Below are positions 32,883-64,000 of a DNA stretch of 64,000 bases, in pieces (position 1 is the stretch's first letter; each line of letters starts with the position of its first letter). The position numbers were made by a program, and so were the translations under genes. The notes below the pieces were generated by a model. That model was not told the origin of the DNA, made no database searches, and saw only the letters and a program-made list of their open reading frames with translations. Source of the DNA: Candidatus Nanohalarchaeota archaeon (GTDB taxonomy: Archaea > Nanohalarchaeota > Nanosalinia > Nanosalinales > JAFCCC01); assembly GCA_017610385.1 (NCBI GenBank), contig JAFCCC010000003.1, forward strand, positions 9,170 to 73,169, in the 5' to 3' direction.

Positions 32883-34589
32883 ATGAAATATTCTAAATTA
32901 GCTAAAATTTATGAAAAATTAGAAAGTAATGGTTCAAGTTTAAAGAAAACAGAAATATTAGCTAATTTTTTAAAAGATAAGAATGCGGAAGTTTTAGATA
33001 AATTAATTCTTTTAGCAATGGGACGACCTTTTCCAGAATGGAGTGAACTTGATTTAGGAATTGCAGCTCAATTAATGATTGAAGCAATTTCAAAGGTAAG
33101 CGGTATTTCTAAAAAAAAGCTTAATAATTACTGGAGGGAACAAGGAGACTTAGGTTTAGTCGCTGAAAAAGTTTTACAAAATAAAACTCAAAGAACCTTA
33201 TTTTCCCGGTCTTTAAACATTGAAGAAGTTCACAGAAATTTTCAAAAAATTGCAGTAACAGAAGGTTTAAATTCACAATCTCGAAAAATTGCATACATTT
33301 CAGAGTTGTTGGCCAATGCAGAACCCTATGAAGCAAAATATCTTGTAAGAACGATTTTACAAACTCTACGAATTGGTGTAGGTTCGGGAGTTGTTCGAGA
33401 TGCCATTGTACAGGCATTTGATGTTGAAAAGGATTTAGTTGAAAGAGCCCACGAGGTTAGTAATGATTTTTCGAAAGTGGCAGTAATTGCAAAAGAAAAA
33501 GGAAATGAGGGATTAAAAAAAGTCAAAATGGAGCTTTTTAAGCCGGTTAGATCCATGGATGCTCAAAAAGTTAGAGATGTAGAAGAAGGATTCAAACGCG
33601 TTCAGAATAAAGATGGATTTTTGGTTGTAGAACATAAATTAGATGGAATGCGTTGCCAAATACATAAAAACAAAGATAAAATACGTATATTTACAAGACG
33701 CCTGGAAAATGTTACAAAACAGTTCCCAGAAATTACTAACTTTATTAGAGATCATGTTTCTGCTGAAAAATGTATTATAGATTCAGAACTTACTGCGTAT
33801 GATCCACAAACAGGGAATAACTTGCCTTTTCAAGAACTCTCAAAGCGCATTAAAAGAAAATATGATATTGAATTAATAGTAAAAGCGATTCCCGTTTTTA
33901 TCAACGCATTTGATCTCTTATTCTTAAATGGAAAAAATTTGATTACGAAACCATACAAAAAGAGATGGAATGAATTAAACGAGATTGTTGAAGAAAAAGA
34001 AAAAGAATTTGTTTTAGTTACTCATTTAGAAACAGATAAGCCCGAAAACGTTAAAAAATTTTACAAAAGATCTTTAGAACTTAAAAATGAGGGTATTATG
34101 TTCAAAAATCTAGATGCAGAGTATAAGCCTGGTTCTAGAGTTGGTCATATGGTTAAATTAAAGCCGATTATGGAAACATTGGATTTAATAATAGTTGAAG
34201 CCGAATGGGGTGAAGGAAAACGATCTAATTGGCTATCTTCTTTTAAATTAGCGTGTCAGAATGAAACAGGAACCCCCGTAACTATTGGTAAAATGGCTAC
34301 CGGATTGACAGAAGAACAATTTAGTGAAATAACAGAAAAACTAAAACCGCTAATTCTTGAAGAAAGTGGTCGAACAGTTAAGTTAAAACCTCAAATTGTG
34401 TTAGAGGTGGCTTATGAAGAGATTCAAAGAAGTCCAACTTATGAATCGAGGTTTGCATTGAGATTTCCTCGGTTAGTACAATTCAGAGACGATCTAAGCC
34501 CAGAAGAGATAGATGACATTAAAAAAGTGAAAAATTTGTATGATGCACAGAAGCAACACAGAAGTATGGGGGTTAAGAAACGCATTTAA
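32883..34589 (+). CDS. lig: ATP-dependent DNA ligase
   Basis: The 568-aa replicative ligase has an N-terminal DNA-binding domain, the adenylation motif EHKLDGMR with catalytic Lys (about residue 250), nucleotidyltransferase motifs including EGIMFKNLDAEYKPGSR, and an OB-fold ending in RFALRFPR. It seals Okazaki fragments. It begins just after the hairpin array, with an A/T-rich promoter-like stretch. Confidence 0.96.
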   Translation: MKYSKLAKIYEKLESNGSSLKKTEILANFLKDKNAEVLDKLILLAMGRPFPEWSELDLGIAAQLMIEAISKVSGISKKKLNNYWREQGDLGLVAEKVLQNKTQRTLFSRSLNIEEVHRNFQKIAVTEGLNSQSRKIAYISELLANAEPYEAKYLVRTILQTLRIGVGSGVVRDAIVQAFDVEKDLVERAHEVSNDFSKVAVIAKEKGNEGLKKVKMELFKPVRSMDAQKVRDVEEGFKRVQNKDGFLVVEHKLDGMRCQIHKNKDKIRIFTRRLENVTKQFPEITNFIRDHVSAEKCIIDSELTAYDPQTGNNLPFQELSKRIKRKYDIELIVKAIPVFINAFDLLFLNGKNLITKPYKKRWNELNEIVEEKEKEFVLVTHLETDKPENVKKFYKRSLELKNEGIMFKNLDAEYKPGSRVGHMVKLKPIMETLDLIIVEAEWGEGKRSNWLSSFKLACQNETGTPVTIGKMATGLTEEQFSEITEKLKPLILEESGRTVKLKPQIVLEVAYEEIQRSPTYESRFALRFPRLVQFRDDLSPEEIDDIKKVKNLYDAQKQHRSMGVKKRI

Positions 34590-51426: not shown

Positions 51427-52521
51427 TTATTTGAAATGAAGTTCCAAAACATCCTCATCTAATAAAATATGATGTCGGCCTTTATTTTGTCCTTCGAATT
51501 TTGCACTTTTACCCCAAACGCGTGCATAATTAAAATTCTTTTGGAATTCTTTGTGGATTTTTTCACAAACTTGATCTACTGTTGAACCAATTTTAATGAT
51601 TAATGGCGCTTTTCGATCTGGTTCTTTTCCAATTCTTTTCATGTATACTCTCATTAATTCTAGATTATTCCATAATTGTTCTACGAATCTATTCAAATTC
51701 CAAGATTTATCTGCTGAAATAAACGTCATTTTTGGGAAATCTTTTTTAATTTTTATTAATTCCCCTTTTGAGAGTTCATCAATTTTATTTAGAATTTCTA
51801 TAAAATGAATATAAACCCGATTCCCTGCTAAAAAATCAATTAAAGTATCTATTGTTATGTTTTCGCGAATTAAAACATCCGCATTTGCTATTCCATATTC
51901 TCTAAAGAGTTCCTTTATTGTATCTTCATCTAAATCTAATTTGAGTGGCGTTAATAGATTAATACCTCCAGAAACCTTCTTTTTAAGTCTAATTAGCGGT
52001 GGTTGTTGATTTAATCTGATACCAGAGTTATAAAGTTCTTGTTCTAGTTGTTTGACATCTTTTAATCTTTTATAATCTGTTATTAAAACAATCAAATCAG
52101 TATTTCTAATAACACTTAAAACTTCTTTACCTCTTCCTTTTCCTTTTGAAGCACCGATAATTAATCCAGGGACATCTAATATCTGTATTTGTGCTCCTTT
52201 GTAGTTTAAAACTCCTGGAATGACTTTGAGCGTAGTAAATTCATAATAACCTATTTCTGATTCTGCATTTGTTAATTTATTCAATAAAGTAGACTTGCCT
52301 GCAGATGGTGGACCCACTAGAGAAATGCTAGCATCTCCAGATTTTCTTAAACCATATCCTAGACCTTTTTTACCTGAAATTTTAGATTCATGTGATTCTT
52401 TTTTATCTTCTAATTTTGCTATATTAGCCTTTAATTTCGCTCTTTCCTTTTCTGTTCCTTTATTTACTGGTGTTTTACTCAATTTCAGTTTTAATTCATC
52501 TAGTCTATCTTGAATGCTCAT
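51427..52521 (-). CDS. drg: DRG-family GTPase
   Basis: The 364-aa protein has an N-terminal helix-turn-helix-like coiled region, G1 GPPSAGKST (about residue 70), G3 DVPGLIIGASKGKGRG, an S5D2L-type insert, NKID (G4) and a C-terminal TGS domain (about 290-364). It is the archaeal orthologue of DRG/Rbg GTPases that associate with translating ribosomes. It is divergent from nth. Confidence 0.94.
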   Translation of the reverse strand: MSIQDRLDELKLKLSKTPVNKGTEKERAKLKANIAKLEDKKESHESKISGKKGLGYGLRKSGDASISLVGPPSAGKSTLLNKLTNAESEIGYYEFTTLKVIPGVLNYKGAQIQILDVPGLIIGASKGKGRGKEVLSVIRNTDLIVLITDYKRLKDVKQLEQELYNSGIRLNQQPPLIRLKKKVSGGINLLTPLKLDLDEDTIKELFREYGIANADVLIRENITIDTLIDFLAGNRVYIHFIEILNKIDELSKGELIKIKKDFPKMTFISADKSWNLNRFVEQLWNNLELMRVYMKRIGKEPDRKAPLIIKIGSTVDQVCEKIHKEFQKNFNYARVWGKSAKFEGQNKGRHHILLDEDVLELHFK

Positions 52522-52574
52522 AGTGTATTAAGAGAAACCTTGTGTTTAAATTACTTTAGTTCCGTAGTCTTTTC

Positions 52575-54699: not shown

Positions 54700-54842
54700 A
54701 ATTATAAGGAACTCACTTCACTTTTTCGTATTTGCGTGAAGGGGGCTTCTGAAGGAATTTCACATAGAGCATTAACCGATTTTGCAGTTATTTGAGTGAA
54801 GGTTGCCTTAAGAAGTGCTTGCCGCCTGAGTTAACAGGTAAA
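54700..54842. repeat. hairpin repeat element before tRNA-Pro
   Basis: The 17-mer AACTCACTTCACTTTTT at 54710-54726 is identical to 32570-32586. The module GTGAAGGGGGCTTCTGAAGG (from 54736) matches GTGAAGGGAACTTCTGAAGG at 32772, and another GTGAAGG copy begins at 54796. TAACCGATTTTGCAGTTA and a CCTG/CAGG stem also have counterparts in the 32.5-32.8 kb array. Confidence 0.55.
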
Positions 54843-54915
54843 TGGGCCAACCGAGATTTGAACTCGGGTCTAGAGCTCCCAAAGCTCCAATGCTAGTCCA
54901 CTACACCATCGGCCC
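54843..54915 (-). tRNA. tRNA-Pro(TGG)
   Basis: The 73-nt cloverleaf has no intron. Acceptor GGGCCGA/TTGGCCC, D-stem GTGT/GCAT, anticodon stem GGAGC/GCTCT with loop TTTGGGA giving TGG, T-arm CCGAG-TTCAAAT-CTCGG, discriminator A. The cognate synthetase gene proS is at 22227-23693. Confidence 0.92.
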
Positions 54916-55046
54916 AAACTGCAATAACGTGGGAAATCAAAGATTTTCTTGTTCAGCAAAACGATTATTTCACTTGAGTTTGATTACCATAATCAATTAC
55001 AATCAATTGACGTTCTATTCATACTTTAATTAATATCCTTTTTATG

Positions 55047-55115
55047 TGCTTGAGTATTCTCGAAACACATTTTGTTGCGAGCTGACAATGCAGCTCGTTT
55101 GCTACACCATCTGCC
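55047..55115 (-). pseudogene. degenerate tRNA-like relic
   Basis: On the minus strand the segment opens TGGCAGATGGTGTAGC, close to the tRNA-Pro 5' end TGGGCCGATGGTGTAG. It continues with a GAGCTG/CAGCTC hairpin and a T-loop-like TTCGAGA with a 4-bp stem. The acceptor ends do not pair (only two base pairs), so it is unlikely to make a working tRNA. Confidence 0.4.
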
Positions 55116-55178
55116 AAACGCGTTAAAAATCCTTAATTTCAGGAACTTTTTATATGAGATAGTTACTAATATTTAAAT

Positions 55179-56278: not shown

Positions 56279-57487
56279 TTATCGAAGTACTTTTAGATCT
56301 GGGGCGGTTGCAAATTCTTTTACTTTTTCATAAACCGCCTGAGAACTTAAAGTCAAAGCATCCTTTAATTCAGGTACAATTAAAGTATTTGCTGCCATGT
56401 ATGTTGGGTAATATATTTTCCATTTTTCTAGGAATTTGAGGGTGGTTTCTGCTTTTCCTGTAGTGTAGCCTAATTGAGACACTAGTGTATTTAACACTTT
56501 TTCTTTAGCCTGATTTTTAATAAAATAATCAAACCACGCAGTAAACCCAAATGCTCGAGGCAAGGATGCTGGTTTAAGGTATTGTGTAGCCATAAAAAGA
56601 TTCAATTTCTTTTCTGCAGGTAACAGAGGATTTATTTCTTCTATTAAAGAGTCGATATCAGGATAAAAAAGTATAGCGCCTCCATTGGCAATTCCTTCTT
56701 GAAAAGGAACATGAATATCATTTAATAAAATAACTTTATTTTCTGGGGTCGTTTTTCCATCTCGCATTTGCATTCCATAACCTATAGTATGACAAGATTC
56801 GTGATAAATTACATGAAGTAAATTTGTAGGCGTGCGGGTATTTGAAGTAAGACTTATAGAAACTTTTGACTTGCCAATTGCAATGGGTTCATTATATCCA
56901 TTTTCTATTGCCGTTACCTCTTCAATTTCTGTTTCGCCTATTTCCTCTTCTGAAAATAAGGACCTTAATTTACTTTTTACTATGGTGTCAACGTTCCTCA
57001 AAAACAAGCTGGCCTCTTCTGGAGTCAAAATAATTCTTCTAAATTCTTTAATTAATTCTTCTCCCAAATTCTCCTCTTTACAATCCAATAAATCACAATA
57101 AAGCTCTTTTTCTTCGGTAACAATTTCATGCGCCAATTTATTTAATTTAAAAACATCGATTCCGTAAAATCTATACACTAAATCTTCAATAGGTATTTCA
57201 GCTTCAAGTTGTTCTAAAGTGGCCAATTGTGCGTCTACTTCCCATGTTCTAAAATCCTGTTTTCCATATGTCTCGTTGCTCTTACTTACAAGTTTTCTTG
57301 CATAATCCAATGTTTTTGGTAGAGAAAGTCTTTCTTGCCCCGAATACCTTCCTGTTCTCTGAAAATCTTCATAAAGGTTTTTAACCCATCTAGGCCCATC
57401 AATGAGTTTTGGAAAACCAAATTGATCTGAATAGTATTGAGTATGTAAAACAAGTTTAAGAAATTCTTGTTCTGTTACAAGTCGCAT
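56279..57487 (-). CDS. HExxH-type putative zinc metallopeptidase
   Basis: The 402-aa cytoplasmic protein has a single HExxH motif in YHESCHTIGYG (about residue 230) and a downstream glutamate in PFQEGIANGG (about 261) spaced like the third zinc ligand of gluzincin peptidases. The surrounding helices resemble M3/DUF885-type peptidases, but the family is not certain. It lacks a signal peptide. Confidence 0.7.
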   Translation of the reverse strand: MRLVTEQEFLKLVLHTQYYSDQFGFPKLIDGPRWVKNLYEDFQRTGRYSGQERLSLPKTLDYARKLVSKSNETYGKQDFRTWEVDAQLATLEQLEAEIPIEDLVYRFYGIDVFKLNKLAHEIVTEEKELYCDLLDCKEENLGEELIKEFRRIILTPEEASLFLRNVDTIVKSKLRSLFSEEEIGETEIEEVTAIENGYNEPIAIGKSKVSISLTSNTRTPTNLLHVIYHESCHTIGYGMQMRDGKTTPENKVILLNDIHVPFQEGIANGGAILFYPDIDSLIEEINPLLPAEKKLNLFMATQYLKPASLPRAFGFTAWFDYFIKNQAKEKVLNTLVSQLGYTTGKAETTLKFLEKWKIYYPTYMAANTLIVPELKDALTLSSQAVYEKVKEFATAPDLKVLR

Positions 57488-57618
57488 GAATAAACTCTAT
57501 GTACAATATTTAAATTCGTATGTAGTGCTTAAATCTTACAGTTTAAGACGATATTGCGCTGTGCGGGCATTCTAACAGAGAGTTCGGTTTAACCTTGCTT
57601 ATAAACACGGTAACCAAA

Positions 57619-58842
57619 ATGTCTCACATGAATAATCATTTCAAATATGCAAAAAATATTGAAGGAGTTCTAAAAAACTTCTCAGATTCTAAAGAATTTT
57701 CTATTAAAAATAAAATTGCGGTAAAAAAGTTTATCGATGACTGTTCTGCTAGAAATCTTAGCAATTCTCGGCTTATTAAATTAATTATGTGCCTACAAAA
57801 AATCCTAAGGCTAACCGAAGAAGATTTTGATCTTCTAGAAGCTAAAAAAGAAGATTTGAAGGACTTGGTACGGAGAATAAACACAGCAAATAAAGAAAAT
57901 GGAGAACCTATTGCAGAGTCATATAAAATAGACCTGAAAGCCTGTCTTAAGCAGTTCTATAAGATAATGCAACCCACAGAGGATGAAGATTGTCCTTCTA
58001 AAGCCAAGTGGATTCCTACGACCTTAAAAAATAATTTGAAAACAATACCCCACCCCCTAACAAAAAATGATGTTGAAAAAATGATTGATGCTGCACAAAA
58101 TGATAGAATGAGATGTATGATAAAATTATTAGATGAATCGGGCGTTAGAGTTGGAGAATTATTGGGAATGAGAATAAGAGATGTAGAATTTACAGATTCT
58201 GGTGTTAAGATTGAGGTTAATGGGAAAACCGGACCAAGAAAAATACTAGTTATTCAGAGTGAACGATATTTGAGAGTTTGGTTGTCACATCACCCATACA
58301 AAACTGAAAGAAATGCTCCTTTATGGGTTAAACTTGAGCAAAGATCAAAAAGAGGTGCAGAAGACAATAGAATTGAGTATGGCAGTTTCAGAGTATTATT
58401 ACAAAGAATTGCTATACGTGCCGATGTTAGAACTTATAAACGAGATGGTAAAATTTTTACAGAAGTTCATCCGCATTTATTTCGACATACGGCCGCATCC
58501 AGACTTGCTACAGATCTTTCCGAATCTGTAATGAAAGAATACTTTGGGTGGAAACAAAGTAGCAACATGACTCAAATTTACATACATTTAAATGGGAAAC
58601 AAGTGGATGCTGAAATTCTTAAGGCCAATGGAATAAAAATAAGTGAAAATAAAGAAGAAATACAAGAATGTCCTAGATGTTTCAGAACAAATAAAAATGC
58701 GGAATTCTGTTCAAGATGTGGTATGCCTTTAACTCTTAAGGCTGCCAATCAAAAAGAAGAAATTAAATCCGAAATTCAAAGTATTGTTTCAATTATGATT
58801 GAACACGGAATAACTAAAGAAGAACTAAACGAAGTATTATAA
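57619..58842 (+). CDS. tyrosine recombinase/integrase with zinc ribbon
   Basis: The protein of about 407 aa has an N-terminal SAM-like core-binding domain (about residues 15-130) and a catalytic domain with Arg I in DESGVRVGELLG, Lys in the beta-hairpin NGKTGPRK, HPHLFRHTAA (H-x-x-R), a Trp/His in FGWKQSS, and Tyr in TQIYIHL. A C-terminal zinc ribbon follows (CPRC and CSRC, about 352-372). All catalytic residues are present. A TATA-like CTTATAAAC at 57598-57606 precedes the ATG at 57619, which rules against the TTG at 57595. Confidence 0.88.
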   Translation: MSHMNNHFKYAKNIEGVLKNFSDSKEFSIKNKIAVKKFIDDCSARNLSNSRLIKLIMCLQKILRLTEEDFDLLEAKKEDLKDLVRRINTANKENGEPIAESYKIDLKACLKQFYKIMQPTEDEDCPSKAKWIPTTLKNNLKTIPHPLTKNDVEKMIDAAQNDRMRCMIKLLDESGVRVGELLGMRIRDVEFTDSGVKIEVNGKTGPRKILVIQSERYLRVWLSHHPYKTERNAPLWVKLEQRSKRGAEDNRIEYGSFRVLLQRIAIRADVRTYKRDGKIFTEVHPHLFRHTAASRLATDLSESVMKEYFGWKQSSNMTQIYIHLNGKQVDAEILKANGIKISENKEEIQECPRCFRTNKNAEFCSRCGMPLTLKAANQKEEIKSEIQSIVSIMIEHGITKEELNEVL

Positions 58843-58874
58843 TTTCCAGTTTAGAAACTTTTGGTATGTTTGTC

Positions 58875-59789
58875 TTATAGGAAAATATTTTTCGCTCTTT
58901 TAATAAATCTTAAACCTTGTTCTATATCCTCTATATCTTCAGCATGAGTATAAAACCCCGCAAAAGTATAATTGTTCATTTTAGCTATTTTTAAGTTCTG
59001 CAAATTTATAAGAATTTGTTGGTTAATCGAAAGATTTTTATCATCTATTATTGGAAGGTCATTAAGTATGAGAAATCTAAAGATCCCTTTTCCAAAGTAG
59101 TCTAGTAACAAAAGCAAATCTTCGTATCTAAAATTATTTAATCTATTCCTTAGGGCGCTCTTAAGAGTATTTTCTGTATGTTTTATGCGCCCCACATTAA
59201 AATGGTCCTTCAATGCGGAAGCACTCAGTATTTTGAGTTCTTTGAGAAGAAAACGGGTCCATTTTTGATAAGTCTTATCTTCTGAATAAATGGATGCCAA
59301 ATATTTCCGTACTTTTTTCTCGTTTTTGGTATAAAACTCATCTAAAGTATAGAATAAAGAAAGATTAAGTATGCCTTCTATGCTTGGAAGATGCCATTTT
59401 TCATTTAGAAATACACGCTTTAGGTCTTCATAATGAAAATAGGAAATATGCCTTGCAAGAGTATTCGTAAAATCTTTTCTAAGAACATCATTGAACTTAG
59501 AATCTAAGAGTTTTCTCTCAATAAGTTTCTTGAGAAAATGATCATACAACCCAGCGAAATTAATTTGAACAACTTTGCCTCTTGCATCGGCGCCTAAGGC
59601 GGTATTAGCTTTAAGGCCTGTTCGTATTGTAAATATATTCTTATTAAAATCTGTTAAAACATCACGATTCCAACGAGAACTATTATAACTTGTAGATTTT
59701 CCATAAATTTTGGTTACCAATACGTCTTTAGTATGTGATTTCTCTAAAACAATAAATATAGAAAGTTTCAAGGCATTTTCTGGAGTCAA
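58875..59789 (-). CDS. unknown protein of mobile element
   Basis: The 304-aa protein is basic, mostly helical, rich in Phe/Tyr/Leu/Lys, and without signal or membrane segment. Repeated patterns such as YFHYEDLKRVFL and NFRYEDLLLLLDYF suggest an internal duplication. No family is recognised. It diverges from the helicase operon across the 25-bp inverted repeat and converges on the integrase gene, so it may share the element's regulation. Confidence 0.6.
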   Translation of the reverse strand: MTPENALKLSIFIVLEKSHTKDVLVTKIYGKSTSYNSSRWNRDVLTDFNKNIFTIRTGLKANTALGADARGKVVQINFAGLYDHFLKKLIERKLLDSKFNDVLRKDFTNTLARHISYFHYEDLKRVFLNEKWHLPSIEGILNLSLFYTLDEFYTKNEKKVRKYLASIYSEDKTYQKWTRFLLKELKILSASALKDHFNVGRIKHTENTLKSALRNRLNNFRYEDLLLLLDYFGKGIFRFLILNDLPIIDDKNLSINQQILINLQNLKIAKMNNYTFAGFYTHAEDIEDIEQGLRFIKRAKNIFL

Positions 59790-59802
59790 GTACTATACAC
59801 CG

Positions 59803-59827
59803 CATTTAACAGTTCAACTGTTAAATG
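59803..59827. promoter_or_regulatory. 25-bp palindromic operator candidate
   Basis: CATTTAACAGTT (59803-59814) and AACTGTTAAATG (59816-59827) form a perfect 12-bp inverted repeat with a one-base spacer. It lies between two divergent genes: 14 bp upstream of the start at 59789 and just upstream of a CTTTATATC promoter-like element for the operon at 59907. It fits binding by a dimeric or tetrameric ribbon-helix-helix protein such as the one encoded at 60059. Confidence 0.65.
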
Positions 59828-59906
59828 AGTTCCAATCTTTATATCTTTTTCTATTGGGACCTTCAGAATTTAAGAAAGTCTAGATTCATAGGTAAATCAA
59901 GTTAAA

Positions 59907-60062
59907 ATGATTCAAAAAATTAATCTAGAACTTCAAGAACATGTAAAAAAATTGAAAGAATTAAACCCCTCGGAGGAACTTTATAGAACTCTTTCAAAAT
60001 TAGAAAAAGATATATTGACCTGTGTTTTGAGAACTACAATGCAGGAGGTGTCTCCTCAATGA
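59907..60062 (+). CDS. 51-aa protein, first gene of helicase operon
   Basis: ATG at 59907 opens a 51-codon frame (MIQKINLELQEHV) ending in TGA at 60060-60062, which overlaps the next gene's ATG. The product is helical and charged (VKKLKELNPSEELYRTL). The overlap and shared promoter support it as real. No family is recognised. Confidence 0.6.
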   Translation: MIQKINLELQEHVKKLKELNPSEELYRTLSKLEKDILTCVLRTTMQEVSPQ

Positions 60063-60262
60063 ATTCTGCATCTTTGTACTATAAAAACAAATTTAAACGT
60101 TCTAATGAGAAGAAAAACTATTTCGTTGGTCTCAAGGTTTCTAGAACCGAAAAAGAGATTGTGGAGCATCTTAAAATGCGTTTAGGCTACCATTCTTTAT
60201 CTGAAACCGTCAGGGAACTCTGTCTTGAAAAAACATTTTCTATGCAAGAGGTAGTTAAATGA
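60059..60262 (+). CDS. ribbon-helix-helix-like regulator
   Basis: The 67-aa basic protein has a predicted beta strand YFVGLKVSRTE followed by two helices (KEIVEHLKMRLGYHSLSETVRELCLE), the arrangement of Arc/CopG-type RHH repressors. It overlaps both neighbours by ATGA. It is a good candidate to bind the palindrome at 59803-59827 and control copy number or helicase expression (inference). GGAGGTG lies just before the start. Confidence 0.65.
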   Translation: MNSASLYYKNKFKRSNEKKNYFVGLKVSRTEKEIVEHLKMRLGYHSLSETVRELCLEKTFSMQEVVK

Positions 60263-61920
60263 AAAAAGAACTTAGTCCAAAAAAACAAATGCTTGAAGCA
60301 TTTAAAGAACGCGCAATGAATTTGGGCCTCTTTGAAGAATTTAAATCATTTCATTTGGGAAATCGTAGAAGAGAAGATTTATTATCTACAATCGAAAATG
60401 AAGAACTCAAGTCAAAGTTTGCAGAACTTCTTGATGATGCGAAAAAACAAGGTTTATATGTGAATATAGAAGAAAAAGCAGAAGAGGATTGGAATCGTAA
60501 AAAAACTAAAGTGCATGAAATTACACAAACTATTCTTGAAAATGCAGAATTATTTCATGATCAAAATGGGGATGCGTACATTAGAGTAGAAATTAATAAT
60601 CATAAAACTTCATTTCCTCTAAGAAGCAATAAATTTATGAATTGGGTTTCAAAATTTTTCTGGGATAATAAAAATGAAACTCTTAGTGGAGAACAAACCA
60701 AGATAGCAATAAACATTCTAGAAGCTCATGCAATTTTTGACGGAGAACAAAAAGAGCTCTATAACCGTGTAGCAGAATTTAATGGGGTTTTTTGGTATGA
60801 TTTAAATGATAAAACTGGGCGTGCTGTAAAACTAACAGAGATGGGGTGGGAAATAATTGAAAATCCTCCAATTCTTTTTTACAGGTATTCTCATCAAAAA
60901 GCACAAGTTGAACCATTACGAAGCGGGTCTGTACATGATTTATTTGACTTTTTACACATTGAAGACGAAAAATATAAGCCACTTGTGCTAGCTACGTTAA
61001 TAAGTACATTAAATCCGAGCATACCACATCCCATTTTGTTGGTTTTTGGCCCTCAGGGAAGTGCTAAAACAACATTTCTTAAATTGTTAAAGTCTCTTAT
61101 TGATCCTAGTGCTTTGGAAATCCTTTCTTTCCCTAAGGATCAATCCGGATTAATTCAACAACTGGCGCATCATTGGCTTACTTATTTTGACAACATAACC
61201 CGTTTAAATCAACAACAAAGTGATACGCTATGTAGAACCGTTACTGGAGAAGGGTTCACCAAAAGAAAGCTTTATACCGATGATGAAGATAAAATTTATC
61301 ATTTTAGAAGATGTATTGGACTCAATGGAATTAATGTGGCCACACAAAAACCAGATTTCCTAGACCGAAGCATTCTAATTGAGTTGAAAAGACTTCCAAA
61401 AAACAAAAGAAAAAAGGAACAAGAATTGATGGAATATTTTAATTCAAAAAAGCCTTATTTATTGGGTGCAATTTTTGATGTATTCTGCAAGGCTATGCAA
61501 ATCCGCAAAGAAATAAGTATAACGGAATTGCCTAGAATGGCTGATTTTGCAGAATGGGGTGAAGCCATTTCGATTGCGGCAGGTTATAACAAAAACGAAT
61601 TCATAAATAACTATTTTGAAAATATAGATTCGCAAAACTTGGAATCTTTAGAAAATTCTTTGGTGGGGCAAGTTCTACTAGAATTTTTGTCCGATGGAAG
61701 AGAATGGATTGGTACTGCAACTGAGTTGTTAAATGAACTACAAGATCAGGCTGACAATATGAAAGTCAATTCCAAAGCAAAGAATTGGCCAAAAACACCC
61801 CAAAATTTAGTTCGTCAGTTAAATGAGTTAGAAGTGAATCTAAAAGATCTGGGGATTGTTTTTGAAAAGACTAGAACAGGAAATAAAAGAATAATTACTC
61901 TCTGTTACCCCGAAGTGTAG
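60259..61920 (+). CDS. SF3-like helicase / primase-associated replication protein
   Basis: The 553-aa protein has Walker A FGPQGSAKTT (about residues 265-274), Walker B LTYFDNIT (about 311-318), a sensor-like IGLNGINV segment and DRSILIELKRLPKNKRK (Arg finger region), followed by a winged-helix-like C-terminus. This is the helicase organisation of D5/SF3-type replication proteins of archaeal plasmids and viruses. The N-terminal 240 residues have no recognised primase motif. It is the last gene of the operon. Confidence 0.75.
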   Translation: MKKELSPKKQMLEAFKERAMNLGLFEEFKSFHLGNRRREDLLSTIENEELKSKFAELLDDAKKQGLYVNIEEKAEEDWNRKKTKVHEITQTILENAELFHDQNGDAYIRVEINNHKTSFPLRSNKFMNWVSKFFWDNKNETLSGEQTKIAINILEAHAIFDGEQKELYNRVAEFNGVFWYDLNDKTGRAVKLTEMGWEIIENPPILFYRYSHQKAQVEPLRSGSVHDLFDFLHIEDEKYKPLVLATLISTLNPSIPHPILLVFGPQGSAKTTFLKLLKSLIDPSALEILSFPKDQSGLIQQLAHHWLTYFDNITRLNQQQSDTLCRTVTGEGFTKRKLYTDDEDKIYHFRRCIGLNGINVATQKPDFLDRSILIELKRLPKNKRKKEQELMEYFNSKKPYLLGAIFDVFCKAMQIRKEISITELPRMADFAEWGEAISIAAGYNKNEFINNYFENIDSQNLESLENSLVGQVLLEFLSDGREWIGTATELLNELQDQADNMKVNSKAKNWPKTPQNLVRQLNELEVNLKDLGIVFEKTRTGNKRIITLCYPEV

Positions 61921-61928
61921 ACCATATT

Positions 61929-61991
61929 GTCATTGCTGTCATAGGCGTCATTTGTATTAAGAGAAATTATCAAGGATGACGATAATGACGC
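61929..61991. repeat. iteron-like GTCAT repeats with dyad symmetry
   Basis: GTCAT occurs at 61929, 61938 and 61947, spaced exactly 9 bp. The reverse form ATGAC occurs at 61976 and 61985, also 9 bp apart. The inner copies extend to GCGTCATT and AATGACGC. The block starts 9 bp after the helicase stop, a typical place for a replication origin or a helicase-bound site. Confidence 0.55.
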
Positions 61992-62100
61992 GGTTCTACC
62001 ATTCTAGAGAATATAAAACCCAAAGAGTTATGTAATTAATATTGAATACGTACGTAAAATCATGAAAAAGTATTTATTATTTCAATACTATTAATAAATT

Positions 62101-62543
62101 ATGAAATGCCATAATCATCCAAAAAAGGAAGCTATTGGAACTTGTGTTTCTTGTGGCAAAGCTATTTGTGAAGATTGTGCTACCGAAATAAAAGGTAAAC
62201 TCTATTGCAAAACCTGTATCGCAGAAAAATTAAAAACTACTGAAAAAAATTAAAAAAAGTAAATACCTCTGAAAAAGTAACTGATCCCTCCAAAAGTGCT
62301 GGTATAGCCTCTGTTTTATCTTTCTTCATTTCAGGATTAGGTCACATTTACTGTGGCAAGATTATGCAAGGACTTAGTATATTATTTGTTTTTTGGATTG
62401 CGGTGTTTTTGGGTGTAGGTGCTAATGAAAACTGTTCATACTATGGTGGTTCTTCATGTGTTTTCAGTACTTTTTTGTGGCTGGGGTCACTAATAATTTG
62501 GATTATAGCTCTTTGTGGAGCACGTCGTGCCGCAAACAGATAA
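62101..62543 (+). CDS. B-box zinc finger/TM2-domain protein, frameshifted
   Basis: ATG 62101 encodes a 50-aa B-box-type zinc finger (CHNHP, CVSC, CEDC, CKTC) that stops at TAA 62251-62253. The -1 frame continues without a stop as LKKVNTSEK, then a TM2 domain with two membrane helices (SAGIASVLSFFISGLGHIY and a later WLGSLIIWIIAL) and stops at 62541-62543. B-box plus TM2 fusions are common in archaea, so the two frames belong to one gene. The junction A-AAA-AAT-TAA is a slippery heptamer at a stop, so frameshifting, a one-base deletion or a sequencing error are all possible. Confidence 0.7.
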
Positions 62544-62754
62544 TTCTACCTTTTTATATATTTAATATGAGTTCCGAATACTCGGACTTTGTCAAAATAA
62601 TAAAAATACAAGTAAAAGCAGATGCGGACTGTATTGCTTTCTAGAAAAGCTTCTTGGAAAGTTTGGAAGCTAAATGCAGTCATCTACAAGTCTAAACGAG
62701 AAAATAGTCCATAATCCGTTCTGGACACATCCTTAATTTGGAGGGAGTGTTAGT

Positions 62755-63270
62755 TCAGTCATTGGGCTTAGAGTCTAATTCAAATAAGTGAAATCTTGTA
62801 CCTTCCTTTTCCCATCCAATTTTCTTTCCTGTTTCTTTGTCTTCAAACCATCCACCCGTAACTCTGACTTTTATAGGAACATTTTGAAGAAAATATCTTG
62901 CATTCGAAATCGCTTCTTTGATGTCTGCTATAGCCTCTTCAAATGCGTGATGTGTCGAATAATAGGTTAAGTCATGTACCAAAAGATTGCGAATTTCGAT
63001 TAGTAATTTTATTTTTTTGAGATATTTATTTGCAATAATCTTTGAGTCTTTGCAAAAGTCTCTCTTGCGCCCTAGAGTCCATTTGGATAACTTTAATGCA
63101 TTCTGTATTGATCCATCTTGAATTTTTTCAGCAATACTGCGAAAGAGTACTCTTTCTACTAACAGAGAAGTAAATACTATTGCGTGAATATACTCTTCTT
63201 TTTCTAGAAGATCTTTTATGTAATCCGAATCCAAGTAACGGTCTCTTATGAACTCTTTGGTGTCCGGCAT
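62755..63270 (-). CDS. HEPN-domain protein
   Basis: The 171-aa protein has a four-helix HEPN-like core ending in EIRNLLVHDL, which contains the RNxxxH catalytic motif of HEPN ribonucleases, followed by a short beta-rich C-terminus (VRVTGGWFEDKETG). HEPN proteins act as toxins or defence RNases, usually with an MNT antitoxin; no such partner is adjacent. It lies next to the mobile element. Confidence 0.65.
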   Translation of the reverse strand: MPDTKEFIRDRYLDSDYIKDLLEKEEYIHAIVFTSLLVERVLFRSIAEKIQDGSIQNALKLSKWTLGRKRDFCKDSKIIANKYLKKIKLLIEIRNLLVHDLTYYSTHHAFEEAIADIKEAISNARYFLQNVPIKVRVTGGWFEDKETGKKIGWEKEGTRFHLFELDSKPND

Positions 63271-63493
63271 AATTTTAGGTTAGTAACGCAATTTTAAATG
63301 CGTTTTATATTGTATCTCTATTGTATCTTTTGGAAGTCTTACACTTATCCTAATGCTTCCAAATTGGGAAATTTACGAAGAATGAATTTGTTTTCGGGTG
63401 CCGTGTAAATACCTCTTTGAAGTACTAAATGATTTTTGAGTTAAGAATGACTCTGGCCCATAACTTTTTATCTTTTCGTGACCAAGTAATATT

Positions 63494-63789: not shown

Positions 63790-64000
63790 ATGTTGCATGA
63801 AAAAATACTTAAGAAGTATTCGGAGGGAATTGATGATTTTTTAGGTATTCATAACTGCATAAAAATCGCAAACAATATCCCTAAATTTAAAAAGTGGTTA
63901 AATTTAAAATATGCCGGAACAACCTATTCAGACTACTTTGAGGGGCATAAATTATTTATAGAGTCTTTATTGCGCACTTTGTTGAGAATTGTTAGCTATA
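63790..64000 (+). CDS. hypothetical protein, truncated by window edge
   Basis: ATG 63790 begins a frame of at least 70 codons (MLHEKILKKYSEGIDDF) that continues past the right end. The visible part is helical and basic, with no recognised motif. Confidence 0.5.
   Translation, partial: MLHEKILKKYSEGIDDFLGIHNCIKIANNIPKFKKWLNLKYAGTTYSDYFEGHKLFIESLLRTLLRIVSY

Follow-up and report, generated by a model that had tools for sequence, protein, structure and literature searches.

Near the end of an archaeal contig lies a group of genes that includes a tyrosine integrase and a helicase. It raises the question whether these genes form an integrated mobile element that brings along a replication module, and where such an element would begin and end. 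The genes are located in a 64,000-nucleotide stretch of Candidatus Nanohalarchaeota archaeon (the window, C3:9170-73169, of which the last base is also the last base of contig C3), and the archaeal genome to which it belongs (788 kb in 18 contigs, 93.5% complete) is compatible in size with a DPANN-type host. The original prediction, made from the letters alone, placed an integrated element with a replication module at 57595-62000 (4.4 kb). The existence of such an element is supported by an attachment (att) core with inverted arms at a tRNA-Gly gene, an integrase of a family that adjoins tRNA genes, and a D5/SaPI-type helicase with iterons downstream of it. The predicted boundaries were wrong, since the element starts at 57555, runs beyond 62000 to the window end (64000) and, after a gap between contigs, probably resumes in the last 488 bp of contig C17. 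We consider it likely, with a probability of about 80%, that the locus is an integrative element of at least 6.9 kb in the 3′ end of an intron-containing tRNA-Gly(GCC) gene, which would excise and replicate as a plasmid.

To our knowledge, it is uncommon for an integrated element of a small-genome archaeon to have both precise boundaries and a credible replicon. The present one offers a candidate origin, an att pair that is defined, and an initiator suited to expression and testing. As it is cut by contig ends, its size and its tRNA target become visible only through contig-to-contig comparison.

The attachment site and the contig ends

Homologous integrases of this phylum are found directly behind tRNA genes, and the flanks of the element were therefore compared with all tRNAs listed for the genome. 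There was one match, tRNA-Gly, and the corresponding attachment site in the window (57555-57592) is composed of two parts:

57555-57571, minus strand: attR core, a remnant of the tRNA-Gly(GCC) 3′ end and left boundary of the element; 16 of 17 positions agree with the last 17 nucleotides of the tRNA
57571-57592, plus strand: arm TCTAACAGAGAGTTCGGTTTAA on the integrase side, matching perfectly, over 22 bp and in inverted orientation, the arm that directly follows tRNA-Gly on C17

The core is the sole such match in the window, and its other copy belongs to attL, which is the intact intron-containing tRNA-Gly(GCC) gene (C17:33114-33263). With its flanking bases, the arm is identical at 25 of 26 positions (57567-57592 against C17:33261-33286), and its two copies point into the element from either end. 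Read on a single strand, C17 gives the tRNA leading to AATTCCCGCACAGCGCA followed by CTCTAACAGAG, and the minus strand of C3 gives CTCTGTTAGAATGCCCGCACAGCGCA followed by ATATCG; the recombination core from the tRNA 3′ end is AATkCCCGCACAGCGCA. Judged by sequence, the layout is that of attL and attR of one element, the ends of which carry inverted copies of one arm. Whole-genome searches gave no further copies of core or arm beyond the tRNA-Gly and integrase sites, and the arm sequence had no match in IMG/VR. A search for att repeats had been proposed with the prediction; the pair indeed exists, but it is divided between two contigs and no repeat is present inside the predicted interval, a search within 54-64 kb of the window yielding chance-level matches only.

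C17 ends at 33751, 488 bp past tRNA-Gly, and C3 ends at window position 64000, both inside the predicted element. If attL and attR are paired in this way, the right end of C17 must lead into the right end of C3, and we infer that these ends join. When compared with the other contigs, the end of C17 showed no match except the arm. The phylum is represented by 28 genomes (own genome counted), the others all being of different families, and gene neighbourhoods in relatives served as an independent test of the join. Upstream of tRNA-Gly on C17 are oapB and oapC (Pfam, 2e-19 and 1e-23), and a DRG-type GTPase gene is present in the window at 51430-52527. The GTPase gene and oapB share a contig in 14 relatives, and in 13 of these they are 1-30 kb apart; in the host genome, the two come that close only if right end is joined to right end. 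The conserved neighbourhoods in relatives thus favour the join, backing proximity and not exact order.

That the two sites would stem from independent events, a remnant at the tRNA-Gly of C17 and, at the window site, another element using the same recombination site, is suggested by the location of the halves on different contigs with a junction that is not seen. This is very unlikely, as core and arms occur at these two genome sites only, oriented as one attL/attR pair, and synteny brings the two contig ends together.

In one relative (G001, locus L191, G001:C6:1-716), an intron-containing tRNA-Met(CAT) located just downstream of oapB-oapC is directly followed by an integrase of the same family, which shows that tRNA-targeting elements are attracted to this neighbourhood. 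In the window itself, tRNA-Pro (54842-54916) was considered as a target and rejected, because its orientation would place the element on the opposite side. A segment close to it (55093-55118, minus strand) is 77% similar to the 5′ half of this tRNA-Pro and is possibly a degraded tRNA. Just outside attR, a 402-amino-acid (aa) protein with an HExxH motif (HESCH) is encoded at 56279-57487 on the minus strand; it had no match in the relatives.

Integrase, initiator helicase and candidate origin

Three features concern recombination and replication:

57619-58842, plus strand: tyrosine integrase, 407 aa, with a C-terminal zinc ribbon (Pfam PF00589, E=4e-22)
60259-61920, plus strand: D5/SaPI-Rep-type initiator helicase, 553 aa, without primase domain, assigned by homologues and predicted fold
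61918-62005, no strand: candidate replication origin, with three direct GTCAT copies (9-bp period), an AT-rich centre and two inverted GTCAT copies

The integrase is complete and has a zinc ribbon, as was predicted. Its open reading frame (ORF) is intact and open from a TTG at 57595 (57595-58842), with the ATG at 57619 as the likely start, and the Phage_integrase match is accompanied by the R, K, HxxR and Tyr boxes and by two CxxC pairs. Matches occur in 13 of the 28 phylum genomes (own genome counted), several of them adjoining tRNA genes; the phylum homologues directly follow tRNA genes for Thr, Arg, Ala and Ile, and for Met in G001. The same genome contains another integrated element, about 21 kb long (L116/L164, G000:C14:3619 to about 24524). 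Its 484-aa integrase directly follows tRNA-Ile(tat), it encloses an HsdM-type methylase, and at C14:3619-3632 the tRNA end is repeated exactly over 14 bp (CTCTCGGGGCTTAA); inverted arms of the type seen at tRNA-Gly were looked for at this element and not found.

The helicase was modelled with AlphaFold2 from 29 sequences, with a predicted local distance difference test (pLDDT) score of 89. The best structural matches of the model were the primase-helicase (Rep) of SaPI5, a Staphylococcus aureus pathogenicity island (Z 17.1), the pox D5 protein (Z 16) and Cch of the staphylococcal cassette chromosome SCCmec (Z 13.1), at identities to solved structures of about 9-12%. The protein is thus predicted to fold as a D5/SaPI-Rep-type initiator helicase, by which its earlier description as superfamily 3 (SF3)-like, in agreement with SF3/D5-type helicases as best matches, is refined. 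In the profile hidden Markov model search that had been suggested, nothing in Pfam, NCBIfam or PHROG exceeded its cut-off (a VapE-like domain reached 16.7 bits against a cut-off of 25), and no prim-pol match or other primase domain was detected in the protein. Homologues are nonetheless widespread. Plasmids of Methanothrix, Stanieria, Methylobacterium and Streptomyces carry them, as do a Microbacterium phage, viral contigs and genomes. Some relatives adjoin primases, serine recombinases or tyrosine recombinases, and in several cases a prim-pol or Toprim domain is fused to the helicase or lies beside it. This is a plasmid and virus helicase family common to bacteria of the Candidate Phyla Radiation (CPR) and archaea, for which Pfam, NCBIfam and PHROG have no model. 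The statement that most proteins of the element belong to no recognisable family holds for the 304-aa protein described below, but the helicase is a member of a broad family that has not been modelled.

The nearest relatives of the helicase (41-46% identity) are from Peregrinibacteria, Peribacteraceae, Yanofskybacteria, Parcubacteria and Chloroflexota, with those of Nitrososphaerota at 37-40%. In a careful tree, a 97/97 clade joins the window helicase with its nearest relatives, and Nitrososphaerota are weakly adjacent (90/81). A direct CPR donor is not claimed, as a quick tree pointed to Peribacteraceae and the careful tree to Nitrososphaerota. At the four CPR loci that were read (L212, L213, L215 and L216), a large serine recombinase follows the helicase; these loci probably represent small integrative elements in CPR bacteria, whose helicase has no family model.

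The genes may also be part of a provirus or virus-derived element instead of a plasmid, with capsid and packaging genes in the unassembled gap. D5-type helicases are common on viral contigs, with at least 141 relatives of the window helicase confirmed among the 600 IMG/VR pattern matches listed, archaeal pleomorphic viruses are among the integrase matches, and the size of the gap between C17 and C3 is unknown. Nevertheless, the profile libraries recognised no structural, capsid or packaging gene in the visible 6.9 kb, and the nearest helicase relatives lie beside serine recombinases in CPR genomes, which makes a viral nature of the element quite unlikely.

Directly behind the helicase stop codon, GTCAT motifs are positioned at 61929, 61938 and 61947 (plus strand) and at 61976 and 61985 (minus strand), in 9-bp steps. 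The iterons that had been noted here are real: the cluster is the densest in the 64 kb, and none of 60 Markov copies of the window reached five such repeats. Based on this arrangement, the segment 61918-62005 is a candidate replication origin. Iterons directly behind a helicase gene, the small size of the element, the structural match to SaPI5 Rep and the lack of a visible primase would all suit a satellite-like island of the phage-inducible chromosomal island (PICI) or SaPI type, having a SaPI-type initiator and replicating once a helper virus supplies further functions. The chance that this is the case is slim, given that no packaging-interference gene or helper is known and that ordinary plasmids also carry helicases of this type.

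Regulation, proposed life cycle and cargo

Between the integrase and the origin, and to the right of the latter, the window contains the following further features:

58875-59789, minus strand: 304-aa divergent protein without detectable relatives
59803-59827, no strand: perfect palindrome CATTTAACAGTTCAACTGTTAAATG between divergent genes (folding z = -6.66)
59907-60062, plus strand: 51-aa ORF that opens the replication operon, with a 4-bp overlap with the next ORF
60059-60262, plus strand: 67-aa ribbon-helix-helix (RHH)-like protein (FVGLKVSRTEKEIVEHLKMRLGYHSLSETVRELCLE), the pattern read by eye
62101-62543, plus strand: B-box zinc finger and hydrophobic C-terminal part, in different frames; the frame changes close to an A-run at about 62240
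62755-63270, minus strand: 171-aa HEPN-like protein with an RNLLVH motif noted by eye, found in this genome only
63790-64000, plus strand: ORF running off the contig end, where window and C3 end together

The divergent gene that had been noted is indeed present and without family, as nothing above cut-off was obtained with Pfam, PHROG and NCBIfam. Relatives were found neither among the 27 other genomes of the phylum nor in viral, plasmid, phage or genome collections, and a single-sequence structure model was meaningless (pLDDT 35). Regarding the palindrome, none of 200 shuffles was equally stable, and its proposed role as an operator is probable. For the RHH-like regulator, a 67-aa ORF with an RHH-looking pattern can be recognised by eye, but the assignment does not reach a Pfam cut-off. 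Gene order is not fixed at this locus across relatives, because the helicase is absent from the 59 other genomes searched, including all 27 phylum relatives, and the 304-aa protein from those 27; the patchy presence thus amounts to 1 of 60 and 1 of 28 genomes, respectively.

A small RHH-like regulator, a helicase and iterons combine features of SaPI/SCCmec with those of pRN1, and from fold, gene order and these precedents we infer how binding, excision, replication and regulation may proceed. The tyrosine integrase would recombine the short core from the tRNA 3′ end, and in the circular form this core would be located between two perfect 22-bp inverted arms. Excision would leave an empty site in which tRNA-Gly ...CACAGCGCA is joined directly to ATATCGTC, and the circle would carry the attP junction TTAGAATGCCCGCACAGCGCACTCTAAC and replicate as a plasmid. 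The helicase could bind the GTCAT iterons directly downstream of its own gene, melt the AT-rich centre, load as a hexamer and recruit a primase and a polymerase, either from the host or encoded in a part that is not seen. The RHH-like protein, encoded in one operon with the helicase, would restrain both divergent transcripts by binding to the palindrome at 59803-59827.

Several observations weigh against an element of this kind. The ends of C17 and C3 do not overlap and the join is not observed; intervening sequence must therefore be missing, in a gap of unknown size. In most relatives, the GTPase gene is upstream of oapB instead of downstream, and because order and strand vary between families, synteny supports proximity only. 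None of the 27 other phylum genomes is close enough for an empty-site comparison. The composition of the element is weakly atypical (6 of 107 windows are equally deviant), the stability of the iteron hairpin is unremarkable (z = -1.5), and the RHH assignment of the 67-aa protein stays below the curated Pfam cut-off, no family being reached in the libraries searched. The visible part also has no primase, though close relatives of the helicase carry one.

The B-box and HEPN-like genes are probably cargo. The break in the B-box gene near the A-run is either a true frameshift or a sequencing error. Together with the single mismatch in the core and the assembly breaks that hide the whole element, this frameshift would fit a decayed remnant, in which integrase, helicase and cargo persist and excision and replication are lost. 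We regard such decay as unlikely, since the arms are perfect over 22 bp, the ORFs of integrase and helicase are intact, and the integrase has kept its catalytic motifs.

In the right-hand part, window segments 62562-62706 and 63303-63394 recur adjacent to each other on contig C13 (L128, G000:C13:139597-139841; 77% and 82%). The C13 copy lacks the 596 bp containing the HEPN-like gene, and a 77-aa N-terminal integrase fragment is about 2.2 kb away. Weak Rfam and PADLOC matches were set aside as chance.

Comparison with known systems

Close parallels to the replication module are known from staphylococci. The C-terminal domain of SaPI Rep recognises short origin iterons directly behind rep, with a dispensable SaPI primase, and behind the gene of SCCmec Cch2 there are three short iterons to which this protein binds (PMC7581432). 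The window helicase matches these self-loading D5/SF3-type initiators in predicted fold and in the short iterons downstream. The window element differs by its archaeal host, a tyrosine integrase with zinc ribbon, the absence of a visible primase and of a match to a curated family. The crenarchaeal plasmid pRN1 has an operon of repressor and rep with the origin directly downstream (PMC4234260). A small repressor and replication protein operon of this type is also suggested for the window element, whereas pRN1 Rep is a prim-pol/helicase fusion acting with a stem-loop origin and the window helicase stands alone with iterons. The element would work like a SaPI- or pRN-type replicon, yet formally it belongs to neither. 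The helicases closest in sequence (43-46% identity) are those of the CPR elements at L212, L213, L215 and L216, which combine a serine recombinase with a Toprim, Prim-Pol or CHC2 primase, in contrast to the tyrosine integrase found here.

One may go further and propose an integrative satellite or plasmid family of small-genome archaea, with a SaPI-like iteron-binding initiator helicase, exchange between archaea and CPR bacteria, and an attP in which a tRNA-Gly core is flanked symmetrically by inverted arms, perfect over 22 bp, but this is doubtful. The cryptic integrated elements of Thaumarchaeota, mostly smaller than 20 kb, combine an integrase with diverse replication proteins of mobile genetic elements and target tRNA 3′ ends, intron-containing tRNAs included; one of them, NitAR2-E2, has a Cch-like helicase (PMC6563490). 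The window element resembles them in its integrase, its mobile-element replication protein and its tRNA 3′-end target, and differs in archaeal lineage, in having its own helicase family and in the perfect 22-bp inverted arms that flank the core. An intact tyrosine integrase, a tRNA core at both boundaries and patchy presence are the testable properties of a tRNA-targeting integrated element, and all three were found at this locus. The element is therefore best classified as a cryptic integrated element, a further example of a kind that is already known.

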